A DNA stretch of 55,858 bases from Flavobacteriales bacterium (GTDB lineage: Bacteria > Bacteroidota > Bacteroidia > Flavobacteriales > TMED113). Where the stretch lies: contig PKDT01000008.1 of the NCBI GenBank assembly GCA_002863085.1, positions 1 to 55,858 of the forward strand, in the 5' to 3' direction. Shown in pieces: positions 1 through 43,669 of the stretch (the stretch's first letter is position 1; each line of letters opens with the position of its first letter). The position numbers and the translations under genes were made by a program. A model generated the notes under the pieces. It was not told the DNA's origin. It searched no databases and saw only the letters and a program-made list of their open reading frames with translations.

Positions 1-310
1 AATAATTTAGCCTGTATCCTTCAATTCTTAAAATTTTTGCAAATACAGAGTGAAATGTTCCCATCCAAAGTCTAAATGATTGTTCGCTGTTAGTCAGTTT
101 GAAAACCCTCTGTTTCATCTCATTTGCTGCCTTGTTGGTAAATGTTAGAGCTAAAATATTTTTTGGATCTACACCGTTTTTTAAAAGAAATGCAATTCTT
201 TCTGTAATAACCCTCGTTTTACCAGATCCAGGTCCAGCAATTATCATCACAGGACCATCGATTTTTCTAACAGCTTGAAGTTGTTGAGGATTTAAATTTT
301 TTGAAATCAT
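1..310 (-). CDS. UvrD/PcrA-type ATP-dependent DNA helicase, N-terminal part
   Basis: Superfamily 1A helicase, cut by the window edge; only the first 103 residues are visible. Translating the minus strand from the ATG at 310 gives a Q-motif (LNPQQLQAV, residues 6-14), Walker A (AGPGSGKT, 25-32), motif Ia (ALTFTNKAANEM, 54-65) and the following GTFHSVFAKILR segment. This is the 1A domain of UvrD, PcrA or Rep, which unwind DNA 3'-5' in repair and replication restart. It is transcribed away from the ribosomal cluster, with 288 bp between. The family is certain; UvrD versus PcrA cannot be decided from this part. Confidence 0.93.
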   Translation of the reverse strand, partial: MISKNLNPQQLQAVRKIDGPVMIIAGPGSGKTRVITERIAFLLKNGVDPKNILALTFTNKAANEMKQRVFKLTNSEQSFRLWMGTFHSVFAKILRIEGYRLNY

Positions 311-511
311 TTCAAAGCGTTTGTTAAATTATTAAACTAAAAATAGTTATTTTTTTAATCATTTGGTGATAAATTACTCGCTAGAAATCAATGTTTATTT
401 CATCAGTGTTAAAAATTGTTTAGTTCCCTCAAAATCAACGTTTTATAGTTGTTTGCTCTATTTTTTTAAAAAATATCGGATCGTCATTTTAAAAAAAAAG
501 AAAAATTTGGT

Positions 512-541
512 TTGATATAAAAATTAAAATTTATAGATTTG
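512..541 (+). promoter_or_regulatory. Bacteroidota-type promoter for the ribosomal supercluster
   Basis: A TTG at 512-514 and a TAGATTTG box at 534-541 lie 19 bp apart. They match the Bacteroidota housekeeping sigma consensus (TTG, then TAnnTTTG about 19 bp later). The box is 57 bp upstream of the rpsL start. The rest of the 311-598 intergenic region is AT-rich, with no other feature I could support. Confidence 0.7.
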
Positions 542-598
542 CAAACCATTTTTAGGAATGGAAAATAAATATTGATTTGTAACAGATAAAAGAAATAT

Positions 599-976
599 AT
601 GCCCACGATACAACAATTAGTAAGGAAAGGAAGAAGGTCCTCAATAAAAAAAAGTAAATCATTAGCACTTAGTGCATGTCCGCAGCGTAGAGGAGTATGT
701 ACGAGAGTCTATACTACAACCCCTAAAAAGCCAAATTCAGCCATGAGAAAAGTTGCTAGGGTGAGGCTTACAAATGGTTTTGAGGTAAACGCCTATATTC
801 CTGGAGAGGGTCATAATTTACAGGAACATTCAATAGTGTTAGTAAGGGGTGGTAGAGTCAAGGATTTACCAGGCGTTAGATATCACATAGTGCGTGGTGC
901 ACTTGATACTGCTGGTGTTGAGGGAAGAAATCAAAGAAGATCCAAATATGGTACAAAAAAAGCAAAAAAGAAGTAA
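599..976 (+). CDS. rpsL: 30S ribosomal protein S12
   Basis: S12 sits at the decoding centre and monitors codon-anticodon pairing. The 125 residues match the family from end to end: the [12 protein letters not shown] segment carries the wild-type lysine that is altered in streptomycin resistance, and [13 protein letters not shown] holds the Asp that is methylthiolated in many bacteria. It is first in the supercluster, 57 bp after a TAnnTTTG box, and rpsG follows after 18 bp. The ATG at 599 gives the usual [13 protein letters not shown]-terminus. Confidence 0.98.
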
Positions 977-994
977 TCATTAAATTTTAAAATT

Positions 995-1465
995 GTGAGA
1001 AAATCAAGAGCTAAAAAAAGAATTCTGTTGCCTGATCCAAAATTTGGAGATAAACTCGTAACCAGATTCGTTAACACAATGATGATGAGCGGCAAAAAAA
1101 ATCTCGCTTTTAAAATTTTTTACGACGCAATTGAGATTATTGAAAAAAATAATTTTGAAGAAAATAGCCTCGATGTATGGAAAAAAGCACTTTCAAATGT
1201 TATGCCCCAAGTTGAGGTTCGTAGCAGAAGAATTGGTGGTGCTACATTTCAAATACCAATGGAAATTAGACCTGAGCGTAAAATTTCAATGGCCATGACT
1301 TGGATGATAAAATTTTCTCGTAAAAGAAACGAAAAATCCATGGCTCAAAAACTTGCTGGTGAAATAATGGCAGCATATAAAGAGGAGGGAGCGTCTATCA
1401 AGAAAAAAACTGAAGTTCATAAGATGGCTGAGGCTAACAAAGCTTTTTCCCATTTTAGATTTTAA
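995..1465 (+). CDS. rpsG: 30S ribosomal protein S7
   Basis: S7 nucleates folding of the 3' major domain of 16S rRNA and lies near the E-site tRNA. The 156 residues are full length: basic N-terminus (MRKSRAKKR), then PDPKFGD, VNTMMMSGKK, and the PQVEVRSRRIGGATFQIP loop, ending ANKAFSHFRF. The start is GTG at 995, since no ATG is available before the conserved N-terminus. It lies between rpsL and fusA as in most bacterial str operons. Confidence 0.98.
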   Translation: MRKSRAKKRILLPDPKFGDKLVTRFVNTMMMSGKKNLAFKIFYDAIEIIEKNNFEENSLDVWKKALSNVMPQVEVRSRRIGGATFQIPMEIRPERKISMAMTWMIKFSRKRNEKSMAQKLAGEIMAAYKEEGASIKKKTEVHKMAEANKAFSHFRF

Positions 1466-1477
1466 ATAATTATAATT

Positions 1478-3583
1478 ATGGCTCAAAGAGATTTAAAGTA
1501 TACAAGAAACATTGGAATTATGGCCCACATTGATGCTGGGAAAACAACTACAACCGAAAGAATCTTATATTACACTGGACTCAGTCACAAAATTGGTGAA
1601 GTTCATGATGGTGCTGCAACTATGGACTGGATGGAACAGGAACAAGAACGAGGAATAACCATTACTTCTGCAGCAACAACTACCAATTGGAAGTTTAGAA
1701 ATGAAGAGTTCAAGATGAATATTATTGATACTCCCGGCCACGTAGACTTCACTGTTGAAGTTGAGCGTTCTTTAAGAGTTCTCGACGGTGCAGTTGCATT
1801 GTTTTGTGCCTCAGGAGGTGTTGAGCCACAATCTGAGACTGTTTGGAGACAAGCTGATAGATATAACGTTCCACGAATTGGATTTGTCAATAAGATGGAC
1901 CGAATAGGTGCTGACTTTTTTAGATGTGTTGAACAAGTTAAGGAAAGACTAAATGGAAATCCAATTCCATTACAAATACCAATTGGCTCTGAAGATAATT
2001 TCAAAGGTGTTGTTGACCTTGTCACAATGAAAGGAATTATTTGGAACGAAGAAGATCTTGGAATGACCTTTAAAGAGGTTGAGATACCAGAAGATTTAAA
2101 GGATACTGCCAGCGAGTGGAGAGATAAAATGCTTGAGGCCGTTGCTGAGTCTGATGAAGCTTTGATGGAAAAGTATTTTGAAGATGCGTCTTCAATTACT
2201 TCATCCGAGATTGAAAAGGCAATTAGAACTGCAACATTAAATATGAGCATCACACCAATGTTATGCGGATCTGCATTTAAAAATAAAGGTGTTCAGACCT
2301 TACTTGACAACGTTATGTTGTATCTCCCAAGCCCGTTAGATGTACCGTCTATTGTAGGTTTAGATCCAAAGTCAGATGAGGAAACAACAAGAAAACCTCA
2401 AAACTCGGAGCCATTCTCTGCTTTAGCTTTTAAAATTGCTACTGATCCCTTTGTTGGTAGATTATGTTTTTTTAGAGTATATTCTGGAGTGTTGCAATCG
2501 GGATCATATATTTATAATACACGCTCAGGATCAAAGGAAAGAATTTCTAGAATCTTTCAAATGCATTCAAACTCTAGAAATGCTCTTGACAAGATTGAAG
2601 CAGGTGACATAGGTGCAGCTGTAGGTTTCAAAGATATAAGAACTGGTGACACACTTTGTGTTGAAAACGCTCAGGTTGTTTTAGAGTCAATGGATTTTCC
2701 AGATCCAGTTATAGGTATTGCTGTTGAACCAAAAACCCAAAATGATGTAGATAAACTTGGCGTGGCTCTCAGTAAATTATCTGAAGAAGATCCAACATTT
2801 CAGGTCAAGTCCGATCATGACACTGGCCAAACAATTATTTCCGGAATGGGTGAATTGCATTTAGAGGTTCTCGTTGACAGACTAAAACGTGAGTTCAATG
2901 TCGAATGTAATCAAGGTGCTCCTCAGGTTAATTACAAAGAAACAATCAAAGGATCTGTAGATCATAGAGAAGTTTACAAAAAACAGACCGGTGGTAGAGG
3001 TAAATTTGCAGACATCATTTTTACTGTTGAGCCCAATGATGACAAAGAAAATCCTGGTTTGTTATTTGTTGACAAAGTTAAAGGGGGTAATATCCCAAAA
3101 GAGTTCATCCCCTCTGTCAAAAAAGGTTTTATGGATTCAATGAAAAATGGAGTATTAGCTGGGTATGAAATCGATTCAATGAAAGTCACATTAAATGATG
3201 GTTCATTTCACGCAGTTGATTCAGATCAACTATCATTTGAAATATGTGCTAAATCTGCATTCAGAGAAGCACTTCCGAAGTGCCAGCCAGTTTTACTTGA
3301 GCCTTTCATGAAACTAGAAGTTGTCACACCAGAAGCAAACATGGGAGACGTCATTGGCGATTTGAATAAAAGACGTGGACTTATTGAAGGAACTAGCGAG
3401 AGAAGTGGTGCTACAATTGTAAATGCAAAAGTTCCCCTTTCTGAAATGTTTGGTTACGTTACAGACCTTAGAACGATAACATCTGGACGTGCAACTTCAA
3501 CAATGGAGTTTAGCCATTATGACGAGGTGCCAAAGAACATCGCTGATGATGTGGTTGCAAAAAATAAAAAAGTAGAAGCATAA
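1478..3583 (+). CDS. fusA: Elongation factor G
   Basis: EF-G is the translocation GTPase, and with RRF it splits ribosomes. The 701 residues are normal length. Visible motifs are G1 AHIDAGKT (16-23), G2 [12 protein letters not shown]3 DTPGHVDF, G4 NKMD, and the domain V signature [17 protein letters not shown] near the C-terminus. The ATG at 1478 is preceded by AATT, as in many genes here. rpsJ starts 2 bp after the stop and there is no tuf gene in between, unlike the enterobacterial str operon. A second EF-G paralogue cannot be excluded elsewhere in the genome. Confidence 0.98.
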
Positions 3584-3585
3584 TT

Positions 3586-3891
3586 ATGAGTCAGAGAATT
3601 AGAATTAAACTTAAATCATATGATTTTAACTTAGTAGATAAATCTGCTGAAAAAATCGTTAAGACGGTTAAGTCTACCGGAGCAGTTGTAAGTGGGCCTA
3701 TTCCATTGCCAACAAACAAGAAAATTTTCACGGTTCTACGTTCACCACACGTAAATAAAAAATCTCGTGAACAGTTTGAACTTAACTCTTACAAAAGACT
3801 ATTAGACATTTATAGTACTTCGACCAGCACAGTTGATGCTCTTATGAAATTAGAGCTTCCGAGTGGGGTAGAAGTAGAAATTAAAGCATAA
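3586..3891 (+). CDS. rpsJ: 30S ribosomal protein S10
   Basis: S10 is in the 30S head and, with NusB, also takes part in transcription antitermination. The 101 residues align throughout: [14 protein letters not shown] at the start, then [30 protein letters not shown], which covers the long loop. It is the first gene of the S10 part of the cluster, but it follows fusA by 2 bp with no promoter of its own visible, so str and S10 are probably co-transcribed. Confidence 0.98.
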
Positions 3892-3894
3892 GTT

Positions 3895-4545
3895 ATGGCA
3901 GGTATAATTGGTAAAAAAATAGGAATGAGTAGTTTTTTCGATCAAGATGGAAAGAGTATTCCATGTACTATGATTGAAGCTGGTCCATGTATTGTGACTC
4001 AAATAAAAAACATTGAAAAAGATGGCTATTCTGCTATACAACTGGGTTTCGAAGATAAGAATCTGAAAAAGTTGAAAAAGTCAGAAATCGGACATGTTAA
4101 AAATGCTTCTTGTCAACCACTAAAAACATACTCCGAATTCAAAAACAACTACACTAGAACTAATGATGAGGGAACTTCAGAGCAGTTTGAGCCAAATGTT
4201 GGAGATATTGTTGGAGTTGATATGTTCAACGAAGGCGAATTTGTTGATGTGACTAGTACTAGCAAAGGTAAAGGTTTTCAAGGTGTTGTTAAGCGACACG
4301 GATTCGCTGGTGTCGGTGATGCTACTCACGGACAACATAACAGAATGCGTGCCCCAGGTTCAATTGGTGCAGCTTCTTATCCGGCAAGGGTCTTCAAAGG
4401 AATGCGAATGGCTGGCAGAATGGGGGGTGAAAAAGTCAAGATAAAGAATCTAAAAGTTCTTAAGATATTAAAAGAAAAAAACGTCATCATACTGAAGGGG
4501 GCTGTTCCCGGACATAATAATACTTACGTAAATATTACAAATTAA
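3895..4545 (+). CDS. rplC: 50S ribosomal protein L3
   Basis: L3 has a globular surface domain and an extension reaching the peptidyl-transferase centre. The 216 residues begin [15 protein letters not shown] and contain the family core [14 protein letters not shown]...[22 protein letters not shown]-like segment (here [18 protein letters not shown]), then [14 protein letters not shown]-like residues. It overlaps rplD by one base (TAATG at 4543-4547), which suggests translational coupling. Confidence 0.98.
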
Positions 4546-5165
4546 TGAAGTTACCAATACTAAATACCAAAGGTAAAGAAACCGGTAGAGAAGCGACGTT
4601 AGCTAAATCCATATTTGGAGTTGACCCTCACGAGCATTCAGTTTATTTATCTGTAAAGCAGATTAGAGCAAATACTAGACAAGGTACTAGCAAAACCAAA
4701 GAAAGAGGTGAGATAAAAGGTAGTACCAGAAAAATAAAAAAACAGAAAGGTACTGGAACTGCAAGAGCTGGTAGTATAAAAAATCCTCTATTTAGAGGCG
4801 GTGGCCGAATATTTGGTCCATCTCCGAGAAACTACGATACCAAGCTTAACCGAAAAGTTAAAGAGCTTGCACGTCGCTCTGCTCTGAGCTCAAAAGCCAA
4901 ATCTAAAAATATTGTTGTTATTGAAGACTTCGATTTTCAGACACCAAAAACTAAAAGTTTTTTAAAAATTTTAGAAAACTTAAAACTTGGTTCAGAAAAA
5001 ATAATGCTAATAATGTCTGAATCAAAAAACTCAGTTCTTTTGTCTGCTAAAAATTTGAAAAAGGCAAATGTAGTTCTGTTTAACGAAATTAATGTTTACA
5101 ACATATTAGATGCACAAAAGTTGATTATTGTTGAAAGTGCCCTAGAAAACTTAAATAAAAAATAA
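4545..5165 (+). CDS. rplD: 50S ribosomal protein L4
   Basis: L4 lines the peptide exit tunnel; in E. coli it also represses the S10 operon, though nothing here shows that for this organism. The 206 residues include the tunnel loop with KQKGTGTARAGSIKNPLFRGGG and FGPSPRNY, followed by the Rossmann-like globular domain (IVVIEDFDF). The start ATG shares a base with the rplC stop, and rplW starts directly after the stop codon, so the three genes are tightly coupled. Confidence 0.97.
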   Translation: MKLPILNTKGKETGREATLAKSIFGVDPHEHSVYLSVKQIRANTRQGTSKTKERGEIKGSTRKIKKQKGTGTARAGSIKNPLFRGGGRIFGPSPRNYDTKLNRKVKELARRSALSSKAKSKNIVVIEDFDFQTPKTKSFLKILENLKLGSEKIMLIMSESKNSVLLSAKNLKKANVVLFNEINVYNILDAQKLIIVESALENLNKK

Positions 5166-5456
5166 ATGGATTTATTACTTAGACCTATTGTAACAGAAAA
5201 AGTGACATCACAAACAGAAAAATTCAACAGATACGCTTTCGTGGTGTCAAAAGATGCGAACAAGATTGAGATTAAAAAATCAGTTGAGACCATCTACAAT
5301 GTGTCAGTGAAATCTGTCAGAACAATGAACTACTATGGTAAAACAAAGAACAGGTTTACAAAAACTGGTGTAACCCGTGGTAAAAAAAATGCTTTTAAGA
5401 AAGCAATTGTCGAATTAATTGATGGCAATAGTATTGACTTTTATAATAACGTATAA
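5166..5456 (+). CDS. rplW: 50S ribosomal protein L23
   Basis: L23 is at the tunnel exit and is the docking site for trigger factor and SRP. The 96 residues begin [12 protein letters not shown], the conserved start of the family, and contain [39 protein letters not shown]. The reading frame follows the rplD stop with no intergenic base. rplB follows after 2 bp. Confidence 0.97.
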
Positions 5457-5458
5457 TC

Positions 5459-6280
5459 ATGGCTGTAAAGAAAATTAACCCACTTACTCCTGGACAAAGA
5501 TTTAAGGTTGTAACAACTTTTGATGATATAACTTCTTCAAAACCAGAGAAGTCACTTGTTAAAGTCAAGAAAAGAAGTGGCGGTAGAAATAATGACGGTA
5601 GAATGACAATGAGATATGTTGGAGGGGGGCACAAAAAAAAATACAGAGTTGTTGATTTCAAAAGAGATAAGTTTGGCATTCCAGCCACTGTCAAGTCAAT
5701 TGAGTATGATCCCAACAGAACCGCAAGAATTGCACTTTTACACTATGTTGATGGAGAAAAAAGATACATAATTGCTCCAGATGATCTAAATATTGGTGAT
5801 AAACTTACCTCCGGAAAAGGAGTGCCACCAAACATTGGTAATAGCTTATTTTTATCCGACATTCCATTGGGAACAACAATACATAATGTTGAATTATACC
5901 CAGGTAAAGGAGCTTCGTTTGCTAGGAGTGCTGGTGCAAGTGTACAAATTGTTGCAAGAGAAGGAAAGTATGCAACATTAAAGTTACCTAGTGGAGAAAG
6001 CAGATTAGTCTTACTTACCTGTTTGGCTACAATTGGGACCGTATCTAACTCTGAACACGGGTTACAAAAGTCAGGAAAGGCCGGAAGAAGCAGATGGTTT
6101 GGACGACGACCAAGAACAAGAGGTGTTGCTATGAACCCTGTTGACCATCCTATGGGGGGAGGTGAAGGTAAAGCCTCGGGTGGACATCCTAGGTCTAGAA
6201 ATGGTGTACCTGCAAAAGGATATAAAACACGCTCTAAGAAAAAATTGTCCAATAAATACATAATTAAAAGAAGAAAATAA
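5459..6280 (+). CDS. rplB: 50S ribosomal protein L2
   Basis: L2 is needed for subunit association and peptidyl-transferase activity. The 273 residues are standard length: N-terminal [22 protein letters not shown], a central SH3-like domain ([28 protein letters not shown]), and the C-terminal loop [18 protein letters not shown], which holds the conserved His near the catalytic centre. A long reading frame on the opposite strand (5743-6261) is a shadow of this gene. Confidence 0.98.
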
Positions 6281-6282
6281 AA

Positions 6283-6549
6283 ATGGGAAGATCTTTAAAA
6301 AAAGGACCATATGTTCATTATAAATTGTTGAAAAAAGTTGAGGAAAACCTTAGCAACAACAAAAAAGCTGTCATAAAAACATGGAGCAGGTCATCCATGA
6401 TCATTCCGGACTTTGTAGGCCAGACATTTGCTGTACACAACGGTAGACAATTTGTTCCTGTGTTTATTACTGAAAATATGGTTGGACATAAACTTGGAGA
6501 ATTTTCACCTACCAGATCTTTCAGAGGACATGGCGGAAAAAAAAGATAA
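6283..6549 (+). CDS. rpsS: 30S ribosomal protein S19
   Basis: S19 binds the 30S head with S13 and contacts the A-site finger. The 88 residues are full length: [19 protein letters not shown] at the start, then [46 protein letters not shown], essentially the family signature. It sits 2 bp after rplB, with rplV 16 bp downstream. Confidence 0.98.
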
Positions 6550-6565
6550 TTTAACTACATAACTA

Positions 6566-6961
6566 ATGACAAGTACAAAAAATAAAAAAATCAGTAAAGC
6601 ATCCGAAAGTTTTGACAGTAAAGAAGTTGTTGCTAAATTAAAAAACTGTCCAACCTCACCCAGGAAAATGAGACTTGTTGTTGACCAAATTAGGGGTTTA
6701 AAAGTTGAGAAGGCGCTTGTGCTTCTTAAACACAGCACTAAGGATGCCTCTGTAAAATTAGAAAAGTTACTGCTATCTGCTGTTGCTAATTGGCAGACCA
6801 AATATGGCGATGAAGTTGCAGAACTTTCAGTAACCAAAATTTTTGTTGACTCTGGTAGAATGCTTAAACGTATGCAACCCGCACCGCAAGGTAGGGCTCA
6901 CAGAATTAGAAAACGCTCCAATCATGTTACATTAATGGTTGGACTAATTGATAAAATATAA
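6566..6961 (+). CDS. rplV: 50S ribosomal protein L22
   Basis: L22 contacts all 23S rRNA domains, and its beta-hairpin narrows the exit tunnel. The family core begins near residue 29 ([17 protein letters not shown]), and the hairpin is [23 protein letters not shown] near the C-terminus. At 131 residues it is about 20 longer than the E. coli protein because of a charged N-terminal extension rich in Lys and Ser. An internal start would remove this extension, but no better-placed ATG is visible. Confidence 0.96.
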
Positions 6962-6963
6962 TT

Positions 6964-7686
6964 ATGGGACAAAAAACAAATCCAATTGGTAACAGATTAG
7001 GCTTCATTAGAGGATGGGATTCAGCATGGTATGGTGGCAAAGACTTTGGTGACAGAATATTAGAAGATTACAAAATTAGAAAATATCTACACGCTAGGCT
7101 TAAAAAAGCTAGTGTTTCAAAAATAGTAATTGAGAGAACTTTAAAAATTATAACAGTCACTATCAGTACCTCTCGTCCTGGACTAATAATCGGAAAAGGT
7201 GGACAAGAAGTAGATAAATTAAAAGAAGAATTGAAGAAAATAACATCAAAAGATGTACAAGTTAATATTTTTGAAATCAAAAGACCTGAGCTAGATGCAA
7301 AACTAGTTGCAAGAAATATAGCCAATCAAATTGAGGGGAGATTTCCTTACAGAAGGGCTGTCAAAATGGCTATTGCTGCAGCAATGAGAATGGGTGCAGA
7401 AGGAATAAAGGTTCAAGTATCTGGAAGGTTAAATGGTGTTGAAATGGCTAGATCTGAAATGTATAAAGAAGGACGTACCCCACTTCACACATTTCGAGCT
7501 GATATTGACTACTGCATTGAAGAAGCTTTGACCACTTACGGATTGATTGGGGTAAAAGTCTGGATTTGTAAAGGTGAAGTTTACGGAAAAAGAAGTCTTA
7601 CGCCCATTGAAACGATTGTTGTTGGTACAAAAAGAAATACTGGTAGACAAGGTCCAAGAAATAATAATACAAGAAGAAAAAAATAG
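6964..7686 (+). CDS. rpsC: 30S ribosomal protein S3
   Basis: S3 forms part of the mRNA entry channel and its helicase activity. The 240 residues begin [20 protein letters not shown]. The KH domain carries [20 protein letters not shown] with an intact GxxG loop, and the C-terminal domain contains [31 protein letters not shown] short basic tail ends in RRKK. It starts 2 bp after rplV, with AATTATG at the start codon. Confidence 0.98.
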
Positions 7687-39591: not shown

Positions 39592-39665
39592 GGTCTGGTA
39601 GTTCAGTTGGTTAGAATACCTGCCTGTCACGCAGGGGGTCGCGGGTTCGAGTCCCGTCCAGACCG
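39592..39665 (+). tRNA. tRNA-Asp (GTC anticodon)
   Basis: The 74-nt sequence folds as a cloverleaf: acceptor GGTCTGG pairs with CCAGACC; the anticodon stem CCTGC/GCAGG encloses CTGTCAC with GTC at 39626-39628; the T arm is CGGGTTCGAGTCCCG. The discriminator is G. CCA is not encoded. It has its own promoter and is followed by a small membrane-protein gene. Confidence 0.97.
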
Positions 39666-39983: not shown

Positions 39984-41264
39984 TTAGAACAATAGACAAA
40001 TAAGAACTATTATGCAATAAATAGCTTGAAGTCCTATTGTTTTCCAGTTTGAGTCAACTAATGATCTGCTTTCATAGTTTTTTAAAATATTTCTAAATAT
40101 ATATAGCCCAAAAAGTAGACAAAATACAGTAGGGATCAACAGATAGACATTATTTAGCTTATTGTACATATAAAATGAGCTGCTCACAGCAAGTATTAAG
40201 AAAAATAAATAAATCCAAGAACTTATTTTTTTTCCGAATGTAACTACAAGGTGATTTTTTCCAGTCATGGCATCACTTTTCATATCAGGGAACTCATTTA
40301 TTAAAAGAATATTTGTTGTTAGAATTCCCATTGGAATACCTATTAACATACAATTCACAAAATGTTCACTATTAGCAAAGTCACCATTAAAAATGGCAAA
40401 CCCAGTTCCTAATGTGAGTAGTGGACCAAAAGATAAAAATATTGACAGCTCACCCAAACCTCTTCTTGCAACCAGCCTTAACGGTCTTGCAGTGTAAAAA
40501 TAACCCAGTAGTAGACCAGATAGTAAAATTTGTAATACATACTTACTGTTCAAAGGATTAACATTTAAGAAAATATATGCCCCGATTGCTAGTGCGATTA
40601 ATGTGAGAATAACCGCTAGCTTAAAAGTGCCATTGAGAGAAATTAATCCTAATTCTATGGCTCTACTTCCACCAGAAATTTGTTGAAAATATTCAGTATT
40701 GGCGTCGTCAGTTCCATCTTTGTAATCAAAATAATCATTGAAGACATTAATAGCTAAATGAGCAATTAATATACCAAAAAATGTAAGAACGAACAGTGGA
40801 ATACTAAACAGACCATCTCCAACACCAGCAAAGTATGCTCCTACGGCACCTATTGGTAGAAGAGAAGCTGATGTGAACGGCATCCTTGTAATTGCAAGTC
40901 CTTTGATTAGTTTGGTTGAAAATTTGATTGGAACATCAACCTCTTTGTCAATGACCTCAGTTACACCACAATAACCTGTTTGTGGATTATCTTTTCCATT
41001 TCTAAATGTTGGTGTAATTCTAATTTTGGCATTTATTTTTTCACCTTTTTTATTCAAAAAATATGTTTCACCTTTGTATTCACCGTCCTTGACAGCAGTT
41101 TCAAGCCATCCTCCAACATTTTGAAGAACAATTTCACCAGGAGAAAATAGAGAAACTCTTTTTTTCCCTATGAGCTCTTCTTTTTTATAGCCAAATATTT
41201 TTTCTGCACCTTCATTCATTGTCTCAATAACACCTTCCATATCACATGTAATTGTACTTCTCAT
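39984..41264 (-). CDS. PAS domain-UbiA prenyltransferase fusion (MenA-like)
   Basis: The 426 residues have two parts. Residues 1-105 form a PAS domain (MEGVIETMNEGAEKIFGYKKEELIGK, FLNKKGEKINAKIRITP, YCGVTEVID), with no kinase or GGDEF output. Residues 115-426 are an integral-membrane UbiA-type prenyltransferase with about eight membrane segments. The first Asp-rich motif is NVFNDYFDYKDG (N173-G184), the second NEFPDMKSDAMTGK (323-336), close to 1,4-dihydroxy-2-naphthoate polyprenyltransferase (MenA) of menaquinone synthesis. PAS as a redox or ligand sensor controlling quinone-type synthesis is inference. No other men genes are in the window. Confidence 0.86.
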   Translation of the reverse strand: MRSTITCDMEGVIETMNEGAEKIFGYKKEELIGKKRVSLFSPGEIVLQNVGGWLETAVKDGEYKGETYFLNKKGEKINAKIRITPTFRNGKDNPQTGYCGVTEVIDKEVDVPIKFSTKLIKGLAITRMPFTSASLLPIGAVGAYFAGVGDGLFSIPLFVLTFFGILIAHLAINVFNDYFDYKDGTDDANTEYFQQISGGSRAIELGLISLNGTFKLAVILTLIALAIGAYIFLNVNPLNSKYVLQILLSGLLLGYFYTARPLRLVARRGLGELSIFLSFGPLLTLGTGFAIFNGDFANSEHFVNCMLIGIPMGILTTNILLINEFPDMKSDAMTGKNHLVVTFGKKISSWIYLFFLILAVSSSFYMYNKLNNVYLLIPTVFCLLFGLYIFRNILKNYESRSLVDSNWKTIGLQAIYCIIVLICLLF

Positions 41265-41335: not shown

Positions 41336-43669
41336 ATGAAAAACATTTTTCTTATTTTTCTTTTACCGTCATTTTTGTTAACGCAAGTTACATTTTCTGA
41401 ACATATCTCTCCAATTATCTACAATAACTGTACTGAATGTCACCGAGTTGGAGGGCCAGGTCCAATGCCATTCACAAATTACAATGAGGTTTCTTCTCTG
41501 GGCTACATGATTGAATATGTGACATCAACCGGTTACATGCCTCCATGGCATGCTGACCCTGAGTACTCAAATTTTGTTGGAGAAAGATTTTTAAACGATC
41601 AAGATAAACAACTTATTTCAGACTGGGTCAATGAAGGAATGTTACAAGGAGATCCAAATTTAGAAGCAATTATTCCAGAGTTTCCTGAGGGGTCCCAAAT
41701 TGGAATTCCAGATGCAGTTTTTACTATGGAGGAAGAATATTTAATCGAGGGAAATAATCAAGATGATTACAGAGTTTTTGTTTTTGAAACCAATTTCAAC
41801 GAAGACAAATATTTAAAATCAATTGAAATAATACCCGGTAACTTATCAGCAGTCCATCATGTGATAATTAATATCGATACTCAGGGCTTGTGCGCACAAT
41901 TAGACGCTCAAACAACTGAGTATGGTTACGAGTGTGAGAGTGGTTTTTGTGTTCCTGGTGTTCCGCAATTTGCTGCTGGCTATACGCCTGGAATGACTCC
42001 TCCAGTTTGGAACAATGACATAGGTATGGTTTTGCCTCAAGGTTCTGATATTGCAATTCAAATCCACTATGCTCCAAGTTCGATAGATGAATACGATCAA
42101 ACTTCAGTTAATTTATTTTTCAAAGAACAACCTGTTGAAAGAGAAGTTGAAGTACTGACTCTTTTAGATACTGAACTTCAAATTCCGGCAAATGAAATAT
42201 ATACTCATTACATGTCCTATGAAGTGCCATTCGACATGAGTATTATTAGTGTACTTCCCCACATGCATTTAATTGGAAAGTCATGGCTTATATATGCCGA
42301 AAATGACGGTGATACAATTCCAATCATCAGTATACCACAATGGGATTTTAATTGGCAGTCATTTTATCAACCCCAGTTTTTGCTTAAACTTCCTCAAGGA
42401 TATACACTTCATGCTTATGCTACATATGACAATACATCAAGTAACCCATTCAACCCAAACTCTCCTCCCCAAAATATGTATTGGTGTGATTACACAACCT
42501 GCGAAATGTTTTTCTTACCATTTGCGTTTGTTCCATATGAAGAGGGTGATGAAAATACTTATTTAGGTAATTCAGATGATTTAGGATGCACCGATGCCTA
42601 TGCTTGCAATTTTAACCAGGATGCAATAATAGATGATGGTTCATGTGGTGTTTTTGATGATTGTGGGTTTTGTCATGTTCCATGTTGTTACAATGAAATT
42701 ACTCAAGAGTGTGATTATTCTGTCAATGAACAAAATTGCAATAATTTCTGGGCAGATTATGATGTAATTTCTGATTCCTCACAAAACATCTTTTGGAATA
42801 ATAGTTGTTTATCGGGCTGTACTGATTCAAATGCGTGTAATTATGATTCTTCAATTCTCCCTGGAGGTTTTGATGATGGTTCTTGTGAATACCCTCCAGA
42901 TTTTTACAACTGTGATGGAGAGTGCATTAATGACAATAATTTTAACGGCATATGTGATGAGGAAGAGTGTTCTGATATAATTTGTGAAGAATATTATAAT
43001 TGTATTTCAGGAGAATGTATTTGTTTAAATGATGTAAATGATAATCAAATTTGTGATGAATTTGAGTTAGAAGATTGTTCGTCACTTTCAATAGATTTAA
43101 TATATCAAAGTTCCGTAAATGAAATAGTAGTCAATGTGTCAAATTCAGATTTTGCAAATTTTCCATACCCAGGATTTATTTTATTTAATTCATTTGGTGA
43201 TACTATTGCTGTAGAAAATGTTAATTTTTTTGGTATTCCAAACACGAGTAGTCATATACTTACAATACAAGATAATGCTGAGTTAACCTCTGTTGTTTCG
43301 TTGCATTTATATACAGGTTTTTATGATTTGTTTCAATGTGAATGGTCAGATTTAATTATTACTGATAATTGTGATTTAACTCCTGATGAGGGTGAGTGCG
43401 ATGGTGCATTTCAAGTATTTTATTTTGATCAAACTACATCATCATGTCAAGAAACAATATGGGGGGGCTGTGGTGGTATTGTACCATTTACAACGTTTGA
43501 AGATTGTGAATCCTCTTGTAATGTTTTCAATATCAACAATAATATAAAGTCAGACAAAGAAATAATATTTCGCTTTGATGTTCTCGGGAAAAAATCAAAT
43601 TTAAACTCAAAATATATTATTGAGGTTTTTGATGATGGAACAGTTGATAAAAAAATAATTTTAAATTGA
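41336..43669 (+). CDS. Secreted haem c / PHM-like copper monooxygenase with GCTD repeats, Kunitz domain and T9SS-like tail
   Basis: The 777-residue exported protein has at least five parts. A signal peptide (1-17) is followed by a c-type haem motif CTECH (32-36) in a HISPIIYNNCTECHRVGGPGPMPF context. Residues about 130-400 match the PHM/DBH type II copper monooxygenase core: H174-H175, H244, H309 and H311 (PHMHLIGKSW), and M391 before FFLPFAF as the CuM ligand. Two GCTD...DGSC repeats sit at 417-437 and 494-517. A Kunitz/BPTI-like domain spans 679-728 with six Cys at C679, C688, C704, C712, C724 and C728. The last about 35 residues (FDVLGKKS to FDDGTVDKKIIL) look like a short T9SS sorting tail. 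The substrate is unknown. It overlaps the aldehyde dehydrogenase gene. Confidence 0.86.
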   Translation: MKNIFLIFLLPSFLLTQVTFSEHISPIIYNNCTECHRVGGPGPMPFTNYNEVSSLGYMIEYVTSTGYMPPWHADPEYSNFVGERFLNDQDKQLISDWVNEGMLQGDPNLEAIIPEFPEGSQIGIPDAVFTMEEEYLIEGNNQDDYRVFVFETNFNEDKYLKSIEIIPGNLSAVHHVIINIDTQGLCAQLDAQTTEYGYECESGFCVPGVPQFAAGYTPGMTPPVWNNDIGMVLPQGSDIAIQIHYAPSSIDEYDQTSVNLFFKEQPVEREVEVLTLLDTELQIPANEIYTHYMSYEVPFDMSIISVLPHMHLIGKSWLIYAENDGDTIPIISIPQWDFNWQSFYQPQFLLKLPQGYTLHAYATYDNTSSNPFNPNSPPQNMYWCDYTTCEMFFLPFAFVPYEEGDENTYLGNSDDLGCTDAYACNFNQDAIIDDGSCGVFDDCGFCHVPCCYNEITQECDYSVNEQNCNNFWADYDVISDSSQNIFWNNSCLSGCTDSNACNYDSSILPGGFDDGSCEYPPDFYNCDGECINDNNFNGICDEEECSDIICEEYYNCISGECICLNDVNDNQICDEFELEDCSSLSIDLIYQSSVNEIVVNVSNSDFANFPYPGFILFNSFGDTIAVENVNFFGIPNTSSHILTIQDNAELTSVVSLHLYTGFYDLFQCEWSDLIITDNCDLTPDEGECDGAFQVFYFDQTTSSCQETIWGGCGGIVPFTTFEDCESSCNVFNINNNIKSDKEIIFRFDVLGKKSNLNSKYIIEVFDDGTVDKKIILN

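Follow-up and report, generated by a model that had tools for sequence, protein, structure and literature searches.

A PAS domain fused to a UbiA-type prenyltransferase, a candidate for regulated quinone supply in marine Flavobacteriales

A gene from a Flavobacteriales bacterium joins a PAS domain directly to a complete UbiA-type membrane prenyltransferase and belongs to a family of genomes that keep a quinone-reducing enzyme and in which neither known menaquinone route is found. Both domains are known, no report of their arrangement was found in the open-licence literature, where the only match was an unrelated fungal paper, and the genome context makes an open question testable. PAS domains usually act via kinases, cyclases or DNA binding. 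Here the PAS domain is fixed on a membrane biosynthetic enzyme and the sensor is more conserved than the enzyme. Our best explanation, to which we assign a probability of about 0.5, is that the protein is a polyprenyl transferase from the MenA/UBIAD1 branch under PAS control, which in this family probably supplies a respiratory quinone from a ring that is not made by the Men or futalosine routes. If the PAS domain does act as a sensor, the supply of respiratory quinone would be governed directly at the protein level.

The PAS-UbiA gene is intact and its architecture recurs in several lineages

The window, a stretch of 55,858 nt from a Flavobacteriales bacterium (TMED113; GCA_002863085.1, contig PKDT01000008.1, positions 1-55,858, forward strand), encodes the 426 amino acid fusion protein on the reverse strand at 39984-41264 (ATG 41262-41264, stop 39984-39986), and all features of the gene given below lie on that strand. 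The PAS domain occupies residues 1-105 (40950-41264) and is supported by a Pfam PAS_9 match at residues 5-92 (36.6 bits, curated cut-off 27), by the PAS fold of the AlphaFold2 model and by its dN values. A linker of about 20 residues (106-126, 40887-40949), helical from about residue 115 in the model, leads to the UbiA-type prenyltransferase domain with nine membrane helices (residues 127-426, 39987-40886), for which the Pfam UbiA model (PF01040) matches residues 139-400 with 99 bits against a curated cut-off of 34.2. The AlphaFold2 model of the full protein has a mean pLDDT of 86.7 and a pTM of 0.80 and places the PAS fold ahead of the nine membrane helices. The Pfam score and fold put the protein in the PAS superfamily, while the Pfam score, two Asp-rich motifs and nine membrane helices put it in the UbiA superfamily as well. 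The first Asp motif, NDYFDYKDGTD (176-186, 40707-40739), and the second, NEFPDMKSD (323-331, 40272-40298), are both complete with Asn and Asp residues invariant among 39 sequences, and an SGGSR motif (197-201, 40662-40676) within SGGSRAIE is conserved across the fusion family. The preliminary description had proposed that a PAS domain directly precedes a UbiA-type enzyme whose two Asp-rich motifs are intact, and that the protein has no other output. Pfam matches, motifs and predicted fold bear this out, the active site is not degenerate, and no kinase, cyclase or HTH domain is found in the protein.

Nine of the 12 genomes of the window's family, its own included, carry the fusion at an identity of at least 73%. 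The other three are 80-84% complete, and the listed completeness values predict about 2.7 such misses. A scan of 84,980 species genomes recovered about forty full-fusion loci, with identities down to 49% and collinear from the first residues, in marine Flavobacteriales MAGs and single-cell genomes, Saprospirales, Kapabacteria and Ignavibacteria, and a survey of 395 genomes of the phylum found the fusion in about a dozen. Every recovered relative that is not truncated by a contig end has the PAS domain with the same N-terminus, and a downstream start and homologues free of the PAS domain were accordingly rejected. One locus labelled Bradyrhizobiaceae (L079 in G070) has contigs, coordinates and match statistics identical to those of a genome of the window's phylum (G297) and is therefore taken as a misnamed MAG.

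The window's family keeps NqrB and neither known menaquinone route is found in it

NqrB, which reduces quinone and belongs to the sodium-pumping NADH:quinone oxidoreductase, is present in all 12 genomes of the family. The pathway search covered the Men and futalosine genes. MenD, MqnA/D, MqnC/E and MenB above cut-off were each found in none of the 12 genomes, and the chance that a universal gene is missing in all 12 through incompleteness is about 2e-9. Among 28 other genomes of the order, MenD above cut-off was found in 19, MqnA/D in 8 and neither in one, a 0.3-Mb genome. Five of the 12 family genomes encode full-length UbiE. In the window's own genome, which is 96% complete, the search gave no UbiE, and the UbiA proteins there are two, PAS-UbiA and the heme O synthase CtaB. 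As NqrB is kept and both menaquinone routes are missing, the family appears to need quinone without a known menaquinone route. Membrane enzymes of this kind normally attach the lipid tail to a respiratory quinone. The fusion, as the one enzyme of the kind that the family retains, may carry out a regulated final step in a quinone supply that has yet to be explained. Where the known pathways have been lost, it is the leading remaining candidate.

In the mechanism that we propose, the membrane half would use a Mg2+/Asp site on the cytoplasmic face to attach a polyprenyl chain, supplied as the diphosphate, to a quinone-type ring. The PAS domain, likewise cytoplasmic and connected via the short linker to the first helix, would bind a ligand or cofactor and in this way control how active the adjacent catalytic cap is. 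In the window's family the fusion would be the last non-heme UbiA enzyme and would probably supply the respiratory quinone, with the ring coming either from uptake of a DHNA-like compound or from an unknown route. By analogy, such salvage has a precedent in Porphyromonas pasteri, another member of the Bacteroidota. Five genes are missing from this species, but the pair that converts DHNA to menaquinone is retained and external DHNA sustains growth (PMC9704088). The likeness extends to the retention of only a prenyltransferase and a methyltransferase. P. pasteri differs in its classic pathway ending, in having no reported PAS fusion and in its oral habitat, whereas the fusion hosts, as putative salvagers, are found in the open sea.

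Carriers outside the family suggest either salvage or an undescribed quinone pathway

Among 30 further carriers, MenD was found in one (G052) and convincing or partial futalosine genes in five (G044-G047, G057). G052 has a classic MenA besides the fusion and MenD, and two others (G044, G047) have separate MqnP-type proteins (L087, L095) and futalosine genes besides the fusion, which makes the fusion in such genomes a second enzyme and not simply MenA. Other UbiA proteins of the futalosine genomes, 296-309 aa long and considered as MqnP, were rejected because they look like CtaB and adjoin CtaA/COX15- and Sco-like genes. Neither pathway was found in a marine group (e.g. G048-G051, G053-G056, G058, G060, G063, G067) or in G041-G043. 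G064, G065 and G068 give moderate PF02621 matches but have no MqnC/E, and were for this reason not credited with a pathway. The carriers that were checked encode both CtaB and PAS-UbiA, and in some of them there are one or two extra UbiA proteins of lipid or unclear type. In total, 33 of 39 carriers have no known pathway compared to 1 of 28 non-carriers, a striking tally, but one that overstates independence and whose p-value is not to be taken at face value, since the carriers are related and clustered in few clades.

The main rival to salvage is that the fusion represents the ring-prenylating step of an undescribed Bacteroidota/Ignavibacteria quinone pathway, the carrier lineages then being able to lose menaquinone synthesis. 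The data do not favour either, and on its own we regard this pathway as possible but doubtful. It would explain why a known route is present in only 6 of 39 carriers but in 27 of the 28 further genomes from the order, and why some genomes with a complete Men or futalosine set also carry the fusion, as expected if it served a second quinone. Free-living plankton is also, we infer, a poor setting for dependence on salvage. A survey of 26,264 genomes reported many lineages without any known quinone pathway and suspected undiscovered quinones (PMC13386864). On the other hand, besides the clustering of the carriers, no pathway genes adjoin the fusion, and in one family (f39) three genomes have a classic MenA-UbiE arrangement with no upstream genes detected, so that the loss has other causes. 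The complete f39 genome G166 has no PAS-UbiA match, no MqnC/E and no MenB above cut-off, and upstream-gene loss in this family is therefore not tied to the fusion. A more far-reaching proposal, which we consider speculative and rather unlikely, is that PAS-UbiA is the regulated prenyltransferase of a Bacteroidota/Ignavibacteria quinone route that is not Men, futalosine or a known ubiquinone or plastoquinone route, with the PAS domain setting synthesis directly by redox state. The gap exposed here concerns marine bacteria that have a sodium-pumping NADH:quinone oxidoreductase and no known menaquinone synthesis, and the fusion offers a handle for distinguishing salvage from an unknown pathway in such lineages.

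Three near-complete genomes encode a classic MenA above cut-off beside a UbiE-type methyltransferase (L175:7092-8683 in G094, L176:6363-7966 in G152 and L177:6934-7806 in G166; clear in L175 and L176) yet are without MenB above cut-off or MqnC/E, representing a further quinone gap.

The PAS half is the most conserved part of the fusion and may bind a cofactor

Purifying selection on the fusion is strong and is strongest in the PAS domain. Mean column entropy across 39 sequences is 0.87 bits for the PAS domain, 1.27 for the linker and 1.38 for the enzyme, and comparison of the window gene with its relatives gives dN values of 0.05-0.13 for the PAS domain and 0.14-0.36 for the enzyme; dS is close to saturation or past it. 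The lower dN and entropy indicate that the PAS domain is not a decaying passenger. Strictly conserved PAS residues include C7, D8, E10, G11, R36-S38, Q48, N49, W53 and C99. Cys7 (41244-41246, strand 2-8) and Cys99 (40968-40970, strand 95-104) are the sole invariant cysteines of the whole protein among the 39 sequences, and in the predicted PAS sheet they lie on the first strand and the last. The best solved fold match of the PAS half is 3lyx (Z 17.1, rmsd 1.4 Å), and the redox PAS domains of Aer (Z 15.2), NifL (Z 14.9) and MmoS (Z 14.2) are among the subsequent matches, although a shared fold alone does not demonstrate function. The top PDB match for the PAS domain alone, 7rdr, was discarded as a repeat artefact.

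A conserved Trp on helix F-alpha is the primary determinant for FAD-binding PAS domains (PMC10468136), and in Aer this residue, W70, stacks on the adenine (PMC9668731). Trp53 of the fusion (41106-41108), located in the long PAS helix (43-60) and invariant in all 39 sequences, aligns with the FAD-binding Trp70 of E. coli Aer in three MAFFT modes. Both secondary FAD residues are missing, Aer His53 corresponding to Arg36 and Aer Asn85 to Phe69, so that flavin is a lead and not a result. The signal that the PAS domain may receive, a redox or ligand state in the preliminary description, is likewise inferred. The fusion shares the PAS fold with Aer, NifL and MmoS and the Trp position with Aer, but the output of those proteins is a kinase, an antiactivator or a chemoreceptor while that of the fusion is a membrane enzyme. 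Alternatively, the PAS half could serve for dimerisation or docking and have no sensory function. Conservation is strong throughout the domain, as expected of a binding surface, and two of the three Aer FAD positions are not conserved. However, the invariant Trp at the FAD position and the two invariant cysteines, which are lacking in four ordinary PAS comparators, suggest a bound cofactor or redox chemistry, and we consider a non-sensing role unlikely, if conceivable.

The enzyme half lies beside MenA and resembles UBIAD1

NCBIfam ranks MenA models first for the fusion, all far below cut-off (TIGR00751, 50.5 vs 102.15 bits; NF004751, 86.2 vs 264 bits), and lipid, chlorophyll, heme and 4-hydroxybenzoate UbiA types score lower still. 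No MqnP model is among the 25 matches listed and the host family is also without MqnA/D and MqnC/E; the CtaB model TIGR01473 is not among the matches listed either, and the window genome has a separate CtaB. In a maximum-likelihood tree based on one alignment, with a midpoint root and a few long branches, the fusion proteins group together (one or two label changes) and a long branch without PAS domain (L153) sits at the base of the group. The group lies inside a well supported clade (98/100) that also holds uncharacterised UbiA proteins from Aminicenantes, CSSED10-310, Bacteroidales and archaea. The fusion clade is sister to, and not inside, the MenA proteins from Men operons, for which menA-menC-menE-like neighbours were read by eye in L154 and L155. 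MenA and the fusion have in common the best-scoring family models, the same two Asp motifs and the UbiA membrane fold. The fusion differs in its N-terminal PAS domain, its scores below cut-off, its sister position, its lack of a men operon and a host family without DHNA synthesis or a known menaquinone pathway. The label MenA-like in the preliminary description consequently holds for the wider clade and not for MenA itself.

The best fold match of the enzyme half is UBIAD1 (8djk; Z 24.4, 3.3 Å, 270 residues), followed by archaeal UbiA structures, and UBIAD1 is also the nearest solved structure by profile (2.5e-13). This menaquinone-4 synthase of animals has related YFDxxxGxD and NxxxDxxSD motifs but is 17% identical to the fusion and has no PAS domain. 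To our knowledge, UBIAD1 alone is known to exchange the side chain of vitamin K. Hydropathy and charged loops predict a topology in which the N-terminal PAS domain shares the K/R-rich side with the two Asp motifs, and this predicted topology, together with the conservation, would fit direct control of the enzyme by the PAS domain.

The enzyme could instead prenylate a non-respiratory substrate such as a membrane lipid, pigment or secondary metabolite, with the missing quinone supply a separate matter. UbiA enzymes are diverse, the neighbours of the fusion vary and several genomes have MenA or MqnP besides it. We nevertheless judge such a substrate improbable, as MenA gives the best family models, UBIAD1 the best structure and other UbiA types lower scores, and the window genome has NqrB yet no other ring prenyltransferase. 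Against our preferred explanation of a PAS-regulated quinone prenyltransferase stand the scores below the MenA cut-offs, the placement outside the MenA clade, the presence of a second enzyme in some carriers, the loss in f39 independent of the fusion, the UbiE not found in the window genome and the lack of a conserved operon. A wrong start, chance fusion or chimeric assembly can be dismissed, nothing having been found in favour of it and the same N-terminus and domain order being shared by dozens of assemblies, MAGs as well as single-cell genomes, that come from many projects.

Gene surroundings differ between lineages

No conserved operon and no men or mqn neighbours were found at the fusion loci. 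The neighbours vary by lineage, with sets comprising Hsp70, a thioesterase and an Rce1-like protease, or rho and a pterin dehydratase, or purH, a Mur ligase and an S1-domain protein. Promoter and terminator predictions show no excess over shuffled sequence, and the sole Rfam match is a tRNA at 39592-39665. The divergent neighbour at 41336-43666 on the forward strand encodes a 777 amino acid protein with an N-terminus suggesting secretion and a Kunitz/BPTI domain (679-728), which is unusual in bacteria. In four related genomes (L036-L039), a pterin-4a-carbinolamine dehydratase lies directly downstream of PAS-UbiA, an arrangement that may point to a connection with the hydroxylation of aromatic amino acids.

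Other UbiA loci also have distinctive neighbours. In a Desulfurococcales MAG (L074:2341-4813), a UbiD-type decarboxylase is encoded directly upstream of a PAS-less relative of the fusion UbiA. In several marine Flavobacteriales (L104, L106, L108 and L120, about 1-7200), a UbiA-type protein of 268-275 aa adjoins a tryptophan 2,3-dioxygenase-like protein, an SDR and a hydroxymuconic-semialdehyde-type dehydrogenase, families having been scanned for L120 and part of L104 and the others assigned by gene order and length; a tryptophan-derived prenylated product is possible. Three tandem MenA-like UbiA frames are present in G190 (L160:3-2493), with neighbouring pairs in the related genomes G145, G198, G337 and G403.
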